Assembly: GCA_009760855.2 (NCBI GenBank)
Contig: WPIO01000009.1
Coordinates: 7,601,001-7,665,000, forward strand
Direction: 5' to 3'
DNA from: Cristatella mucedo
Taxonomy: Eukaryota > Bryozoa > Phylactolaemata > Cristatellidae
DNA: 64,000 bases
Both the position numbers and the translations under genes were made by a program. Shown piece by piece: positions 47,201 to 50,200 of this stretch. Each line of letters opens with the position of its first letter. Within the stretch, counting starts at the first letter, position 1. The notes beneath the pieces are model-generated. The model was not told where the DNA came from and made no database searches. It saw nothing but the letters and a program-made list of their open reading frames with translations.

Positions 47201-50200
47201 AGACGGGCGTCAGTCACGCGGCGGAGGCTGACCTTGTCGTTGGCCAGCTCAAGCAGCTGTTTGCGCGCACGCTCGACGTCATCCTTGGGGCCTCGCACGA
47301 GGACGCTGTCGCTGCTGCTGTTCTCCGGCGGGAACCGGATCAGGACGCCGCCGCACTCGTCCATGACTGCTTTGATGAGTCGTCCCTTAGTACCGATGAT
47401 GGAGTTGTGCAGCTTGTGAGGAATGTCTAGCGTAACTTCGGCAATGTTGGCCTGGAACGTACGCACGACGAGACAAGACAGTATTGCAGCTGCTACGATG
47501 CATTTTGGTGCTTTTCGAGAATGCACGCCGAGGCGCCTTTGAAAATGAGCTACTTGACTCTGCTAGGCAAAAACACGCATGCATACACCTCAAATAATAG
47601 AGTAAGACAATTATCGCTGCACTCTTCGAATGGCTAGAGCAGTGGTTCCCAGCCTCCCTAATGTCACGACCCTTTAATACAGTTCCTCACGTTGTGGCAA
47701 TCCCCAAACATAAAATTATCGAGTGCAAAAATGGAAATGCGTTTTCCGATGGTCTTAGGCGACCCCTGTGAAAGGGTCTGTCGACCCCCCAAAGGGGTCG
47801 CGACCCACAGGTTGAGAACTGCTGGACTAGATCTTTTTTTCCTGTCGAGCACTATGGCACACCCTAGCAGAGCTACGTCTATGCGACCGTGACTCAGAAG
47901 CAGCAGACGATGAGAGCGAAAAGTCACCAACCAATGGCCCGATTAGTTGAAAAGCTACTAGCTCCCCTAAGAGAACGCTAGCCACCTGACCCCCCCATGC
48001 CACCACCCCCTGCAAAAGAGCGTTATCAGCTTTGCTCTCACATCGTTCACAACTTACCAGCTCTTTTTGCATCTGCTCGATGAGTGCTTTTGCTTTCTCA
48101 ATGTCGACCTTCTTTCCAGTGATACGGATAGCGTCAGAATTGGCATCCTCGCTCGGAAGGTCGATGCGCGTGTTGGTTTCATCCCTTATCTTCTTGATGT
48201 TGGCACCATTCTTACCAATGATATTTTTGTGGAACTGCTTGAAAATGTGCACATCTGCTTGCTGGTTGCTCTCAATCTAAAAGAAAAAGTTCCCTAAACT
48301 TGCATGAACTGAGAGGCTGCTATCGTGAGTAGGCGCTATGGCATCATGAATGACTGAGGAAATAAATGAACGAGCACAAACGACTGATGCAGCGCCTGCA
48401 CTGACCATATCCTTGTGTAGGCGTTCCAAATACTTGAAACACTTGTCGACGTCGTCCTTTGGTCCACGAAGTGAGACAATGTCACTTTTCTTGCTCGGAT
48501 CCGGCAGCGTGATCTGGACCTGATTAAATTTGTCTCGAATCTCCTTAATTTTCTCGCCCTTGGCCCCAATTATAGCCCTGTGGAAGCGCTGCTCTATTAT
48601 GATGTCCTTCGATTTCTCGTTCTCCTGCACAGAGAGAAAGCGCCAAGTGCAGCCAACGATGCCAGCTGCCTCAGGCCGGCCGAGTTCGACAGCAGCTTGT
48701 GCAGGTGACACCTGCTGACTCCCGCACGCCATCGGCAGCCGCCCATCGCCTCCTAGGCATTAGTTAGCTCGTGCAGCAGCAGCAGCAGAATGAGGGGACA
48801 GCAGCAGCACAGCAGCAGCAGCAGCAGCAGCAACACTCAATGAGTGTCGCAGATTGACCCAGACGACAGCAAACGAATGGGCCGCACACTAACAAGGTGG
48901 TTCAGCCGGCTTCTGCTGGATCACTTGGGTTAAGGGGGTACTAACTTGCAGCAGCTCGCACAACACGTCGGCTAGAAATCGAGACTCTTTTGGTACGAAC
49001 GAAAGTCCTGTCCCCATGGGGTCTCCTGATCCACCGAAAGCGACCGGAGAGCGTTGATCGGTTCGAGTTAAGTCGACGGGAGGAAGAACGAGCCGCGATA
49101 GTCAGAGGGGGGCAGGGGCAGCCAGGTTCAAGCTCTCGTCCGACGGAAAAAGTCCCCATGCTTCCGGTCCCCTTGGAAAAACCTCAGAATATTTTTTTTA
49201 GTCTGCCCCGAGCATCGCAGAAATATTTTTTTTAGTCTGCCCCGAGCATCGCAGAGCCATTTTCTTGTACGCCAAAAGCAGCAAAGTCTGAGTCAATCTC
49301 TGGAACTCAGACAGCTTCCAAACACTACAGAGGTGCTCCCTTAAAGCATCCAGCTCCACCAGACAGCTACGATGCACTATCCGCTCAGCAGGCACACTCT
49401 CAACCGATGCCACGAACAAGGGAGGATGTGGTCAAACGTTGGGCAGGAGGGGGCAGGAACTGCATGCAGCAAATTTAACTGGTCGATTAGTAGCCTATCC
49501 ATCTGGACATGCGCAGAGCTGGATTCAAAAAGCTGCGCTGCCATCCTCTCGCGCAGGCCGCTAGGAGCGCCAGCCTCAGAGAGGTCTGCTACAGAGTTCA
49601 CGCTCAGCAACGGCATTGCATATCGCCCTAAACACTTGAACTTCCAGTCTGCTAACTAGCTTGGGCAGCTCTGCGCCACGAGTGCATTCACGGCAGCATT
49701 CTGCAAAGCACCACGTCCCAAAAACGCGCTAGTCAATGATATACGGTAAGTATATGGTATACGGTATATGATATACGGTGCCAGAATCAACGACGACTGA
49801 CAACTCGGGTGATGCACCGCCGCTGCTCTAGTGCCTACTGTTTCCAGCCTCTAGGCGTGGGCTAGCCAAGGTAAGCAATGCGGATGTAACACCGAGGTCA
49901 AGGTGCTGCAGCACCCACTGATAATGTCAAGCTGCAGCAACCCCTCCCCCTATCGAGTTCCTGGCAACATCTAGGCCAACTAAAGGCCCTACCAGCCACG
50001 GCAGCAGAGAGGCACCGACTAGGCATGGCACGGCTGCACTGCCAGTACTTACCATTTTCTTTACCATGTCCACGAGCTCCTGCTTAGCTGTGTTCACGCC
50101 CTCCGGATTACCCTCTATTCGGATTACCTCGTTGGGGTCGTCCTCGGCCGGGATGCGGAATGACACACCCGTCTCGTTCGAAATCCGAATTCGATTGGCA

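Follow-up and report, generated by a model that had tools for sequence, protein, structure and literature searches.

A SPIN-like hAT miniature element in a vigilin intron and its probable horizontal acquisition by a protostome lineage

SPIN elements, familiar mainly in mammals and reptiles, are a model for transposon transfer between animal phyla. Here we ask whether a short repeat with SPIN-like ends, lying in an intron of an apparently invertebrate gene, belongs to that system, and how its family came to be in the source genome. A high-copy invertebrate invasion with datable copies would provide a new point on who exchanged DNA, when, and by which vector.

The element and its vigilin intron

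The window (the whole 64-kb stretch of DNA analyzed) holds the element and part of its host gene in the following arrangement.

47640..47824, plus strand: SPIN-like hAT miniature element (185 bp) without coding capacity, diverging by about 8% from the family consensus
47632..47639, no strand: left 8-bp target-site duplication GGCTAGAG, identical to the right copy at 6/8 positions
47825..47832, no strand: right 8-bp target-site duplication GACTAGAT, 6/8 match with the left copy
47640..47655, plus strand: left terminal inverted repeat, 12/16 against the right repeat, 15/16 on the family consensus
47809..47824, minus strand: right terminal inverted repeat, pairing with the left repeat at 47640..47655
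47740..47824, plus strand: conserved 3' block with CGACCC/GGGTCG repeats, sharing 80/84 aligned bases with what we take to be the SPIN 3' end
47452..48057, minus strand: vigilin intron holding the element, 606 bp, AG/GT borders of the adjoining exons
48058..48276, minus strand: vigilin KH exon upstream of the intron, AG/GT borders, Pfam KH_1 and KH_Vigilin
47233..47451, minus strand: vigilin KH exon downstream of the intron, AG/GT borders
41494..51651, minus strand: portion of the vigilin gene within the window, read as 1153 codons in 12 exon pieces, some with approximate borders

The original prediction described SPIN-like hAT termini, an internal block, and CTAG-centered 8-bp flanks, and its coordinates proved exact. 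The element starts with CAGTGGTTCCC, ends with GAACTGCTG, and contains the block gatggtcttaggcgacccct. Flanks matching at 6/8 with a spacing of 185 bp occur at 325 of 63792 window positions (0.5%). Inverted ends matching at 12/16 or better are found at 5 of 63815, one of which is the element. Four CGACCC motifs and one GGGTCG lie within it, while simple shuffles average 0.1 and none of 2000 reached five. Subterminal repeats of this kind are the usual binding sites of hAT transposases. Short inverted ends without coding capacity, the feature of hAT miniature elements, are found in the window copy and in the family consensus alike (185 to 187 bp). These observations confirm that the element is a complete, non-autonomous hAT miniature element (MITE). 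No second copy was found within the 64-kb window.

The surrounding gene matched 1,922 homologous proteins. Among the best 120 of these 1922, the spliced product (1153 residues) shares 59 to 61% identity with the vigilins of Batillaria, Nucella, Littorina, and Lingula, and 39 to 53% (mostly 49 to 53%) with named vertebrate vigilins. One vigilin exon (43438-44007, minus strand) carries a long Ala/Pro/Glu-rich insert. The third-position GC of the gene is 0.76, compared with about 45% GC in the DNA around the sampled SPIN-like copies.

A dispersed, high-copy family in the source genome

The original prediction called for a count of copies in the source genome (572 Mb, 688 contigs), and this count supported a high-copy family. 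Scoring 40 of 2120 candidates gave at least 40 matches including the window copy, distributed over 32 contigs, the longest of which is 24.8 Mb. The 39 other scored copies are near full length and share 86 to 89% identity with the window copy. An exact core 21-mer occurs 226 times in the genome, compared with 0 for the reversed control. Since this 21-mer is present in 14 of the 40 scored copies, and those 40 are the best-matching ones, the family likely numbers about 650 copies or more, as a rough estimate. The majority consensus of the 39 other copies and the window copy is 187 bp long. The Kimura distances of the 40 copies to it range from 0.033 to 0.098 (median, 0.058), in a sample biased towards close copies. 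Another copy (L004:222-404; 90% identity to the consensus) lies about 1.1 kb from a neighboring one.

Flanking 8-bp duplications of at least 6/8 were identified at 27 of the 33 complete copies (8 of the 33 perfect), after setting aside 7 of the 40 whose ends are incomplete. In the control, with one-base shifts allowed as for the copies, 696 of 20000 random placements (3.5%) reached 6/8. Position 4 of the duplication is T in 23/27 and position 5 is A in 24/27, and the family motif is similar to nTCTAGAn. The Ac target motif nTCTAGAn is also compatible with a TA center. The central TA fits the Buster-type target preference nnnTAnnn, a motif given in PMC3499496. In addition, 9 of the 40 copies interrupt repeats: their joined flanks match uninterrupted counterparts elsewhere at 67 to 84% identity, in matches that reach 20 bases or more into both flanks. 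These counterparts include an L2-type LINE in the window (e.g., L021 matching window positions 33521-33127) as well as other repeats. The dispersed copies, the duplications, and the insertions interrupting repeats together indicate that the family transposed in the source genome, and the high copy number and the excess of duplications over the control exclude a chance origin.

These data also bear on whether the element stems from contaminating vertebrate DNA in the assembly or from a chimeric contig. SPIN is known in vertebrates, where two reports place it in mammals and a turtle (PMC5857283, PMC4054807), and vertebrate DNA can occur in invertebrate samples. However, the copies occupy 32 contigs of up to 24.8 Mb, they are inserted in repeats that the window also carries, and the gene around the window copy is nearest to mollusc vigilins. 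This leaves contamination with next to no probability, and we regard this caveat of the original prediction as ruled out by the spread of copies and by the 9 that lie inside host repeats.

An autonomous copy with a hAT transposase, which the original prediction suggested looking for, was not found in the source genome among the places compared here. The hAT domain PF05699 has at least 138 matches (150 of 766 candidates scored), the top 63 with near-equal scores. The 30 extracted loci all represent a single, different hAT element, unrelated to the SPIN-like one, with 29 of them at least 99% identical to the thirtieth over the main stretch. This young hAT, with TAGGGCTGTACCGG ends, was rejected as the SPIN partner, as 0 of the 30 loci match the SPIN ends. 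Its copies (L071-L100, e.g., L082:1062-3237) have the ends TAGGGCTGTACCGGATTTG, and 16 of the 63 top matches lie in an open frame of 635 to 642 amino acids. The second domain, PF14291 (DUF4371), has at least 46 matches (150 of 237 candidates scored), of which 26 contain internal stops. Comparing 15 of these 46 places (11 contigs) with the listed SPIN places, including the first 100 of the 226 21-mer positions, gave a nearest distance of 50.9 kb. The partner transposase may have been lost, may be present in unrecognized form, or may be among the DUF4371 and PF05699 places outside this comparison.

A protostome host nearest to molluscs

The placement of the host was approached with the vigilin gene and the mitochondrial genome. 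In a quick vigilin tree of 66 rows, the window vigilin sits on a long branch (0.79) and falls with the molluscs on one side of a weakly supported branch (64). Constraining it with the chordates (3 rows) was rejected (p-AU, 0.018), and constraining it with the arthropods (5 rows) was not (p-AU, 0.075); the only named chelicerate on the vigilin trees is the sea spider Nymphon. A careful tree of 36 of the 66 rows places the window vigilin as sister to the molluscs (96/92) and inside the spiralian group (100/100). In this tree it is not nested among the gastropods, bivalves, and cephalopod that were sampled.

Contig C688 (21,008 bp) is a mitochondrial genome that follows code 5, with ATA where methionine is conserved and AGR encoding serine. 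Vertebrates read mitochondrial AGR as stop. Provided that C688 is the host's, code 5 excludes vertebrates, tunicates, echinoderms, and flatworms. Its genes include the run nad5-nad4-nad4L-cytb-nad6-nad1, which we take to be as in chitons, many other molluscs, and some lophophorates, while the remaining order differs. The contig (L048, L068, L069) has 44% GC and an unusual gene order overall, and a 1.8- to 2.1-kb repeat is present three times, once inverted, at 100% identity, which reflects either duplication or an assembly effect.

A chordate host with an odd vigilin, for which no cross-phylum transfer would be necessary, draws on composition and LINEs. The third-position GC of 0.76 is of an order familiar from lampreys, and fish proteins, at about 50% identity, predominate among the named matches of the L2 LINEs. 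The rejected chordate grouping of vigilin, its position as sister to the molluscs in the careful tree, and the reading of mitochondrial AGR as Ser and ATA as Met all oppose a chordate host, which is accordingly very improbable. Composition and LINEs had suggested a lamprey or a tick; the lamprey was ruled out by the rejected chordate constraint. The L2-type LINEs are many in the window (32948-34312, 35377-36570, 38163-39285, 55059-55728, and 60535-62000). One piece matches an unnamed metagenome protein (P0203) at 93% identity over half of the query, and the remaining matches listed are at about 50% identity or below.

Collectively, vigilin, a single long-branched gene, and mitochondrial code 5 indicate a protostome host, nearest to molluscs by vigilin and probably a mollusc itself. 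The prediction that the element lies inside an invertebrate gene intron thus held, with vigilin KH exons on both sides.

Relation to SPIN, probable horizontal transfer, and known systems

The SPIN reference was a presumed SPIN-type consensus of mammals, set down before any copy other than that in the window had been seen. Compared with what we take to be this consensus, the window copy agrees at 163 of 184 aligned bases over its whole length, with a long central gap. At the presumed SPIN 5' end, 11 of 80 bases differ, and at the presumed 3' end 4 of 84 aligned bases differ, with one indel. The later family consensus, set against the same presumed ends, agrees at 78/80 (5') and 84/84 (3'). Nine of the 11 mismatches at the 5' end are found in the window copy alone, so a reference shaped by that copy is hard to invoke. 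The interior of the presumed SPIN consensus does not align with the middle of the window family.

A protein search with the joined element frames yielded five candidates sharing words, fewer than anticipated for so common a vertebrate element, and two were returned at E values up to 10. Both are unnamed ENA fragments with weak database E values (P0241, 6.5e-4; P0242, 0.9), and each is collinear through both element ends in a single alignment. Against the family consensus they gave E values of 2e-17 and 4e-12, and against the window copy 9e-11 and 1.5e-7, respectively. Exact SPIN words numbered 0 in viral_contigs and genome_contigs. A degenerate protein-pattern scan of viral_contigs found 63 stretches that fit the pattern, and SPIN was confirmed in none of them. 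A blastn search for a SPIN-like element in phages, plasmids, and E. coli gave no match, and a text search of papers found no SPIN sequence letters.

The element may instead belong to another hAT (Charlie/Buster-type) MITE family, resident in invertebrates, vertically inherited, and sharing only terminal or subterminal sequence with SPIN. Members of different hAT families often resemble one another at their termini, the interior of the window element is without alignment to the presumed SPIN interior, and identity as SPIN was judged against a presumed sequence rather than a repeat-library consensus. Yet the family consensus agrees with the presumed ends at 162 of 164 bases, far more than terminal trinucleotides, and both database fragments hold both ends in one alignment; we consider a separate family of this kind unlikely. 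The part of the original prediction that described a SPIN-like hAT element therefore stands, while the name SPIN, resting on the presumed SPIN ends and the two unnamed fragments, is partly supported at the sequence level.

The window element is, with high probability, a member of an abundant SPIN-type family of non-coding hAT MITEs that was acquired horizontally. We hypothesize that a hAT transposase of SPIN/Buster type, made elsewhere, would act on the family in trans by binding its terminal inverted repeats as well as the CGACCC repeats near its termini, and that copies would be excised and reinserted at sites with a central TA in a cut-and-paste process. The window copy would have inserted into the vigilin intron in this way, and is now presumably a decaying passenger that is spliced out with the intron. 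The family itself would have reached the protostome lineage by horizontal transfer, because its non-coding ends share about 99% identity with the presumed vertebrate SPIN ends. Such identity makes vertical descent unlikely, as non-coding DNA is not so kept over protostome-deuterostome time, and cross-phylum DNA transfer is the most likely account of the family. Whether SPIN is hereby present, in high copy and with a source sequence nearly as in vertebrates, in a protostome lineage beyond the insects and gastropod snails already reported is a more finely balanced question, to which we give even chances. Such a lineage might be a mollusc group other than gastropods, bivalves, and cephalopods, or a sister phylum. 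If the host does lie beyond those groups, the range of SPIN extends to a new class or phylum, and a near-vertebrate source sequence in a protostome would hint at a shared vector.

Vertebrate SPIN_NA (Space Invaders), by its presumed sequence, shares with the window family near-identical 80-bp 5' and 84-bp 3' ends, hAT ends, and 8-bp duplications. The window family differs from it in being shorter (about 187 bp), in having an interior of its own, and in its protostome host. Among invertebrates, SPIN occurs in the snail Lymnaea stagnalis. Molluscs have also yielded a published SPIN-like case, that of Biomphalaria glabrata, which carries a SPIN-like hAT in about 1,000 copies, with no intact DNA-element transposases detected (PMC5440852). 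Among the literature matches listed, in a coverage mostly without subscription journals, nothing more was found on SPIN in further molluscs or spiralians. The Biomphalaria element shares with the window family a mollusc host, a probable one in the present case, and a high copy number, whereas the vigilin tree separates the window host from the gastropods, bivalves, and cephalopod sampled. In Rhodnius prolixus, also an invertebrate, SPIN was acquired horizontally from vertebrates according to PMC11614815, and the host there is an insect. The TcBuster/Buster hATs, with which SPIN is grouped in PMC3499496, produce 8-bp duplications of the form nnnTAnnn, so that the central TA is alike in both systems; TcBuster is autonomous, in contrast to the non-autonomous window element.
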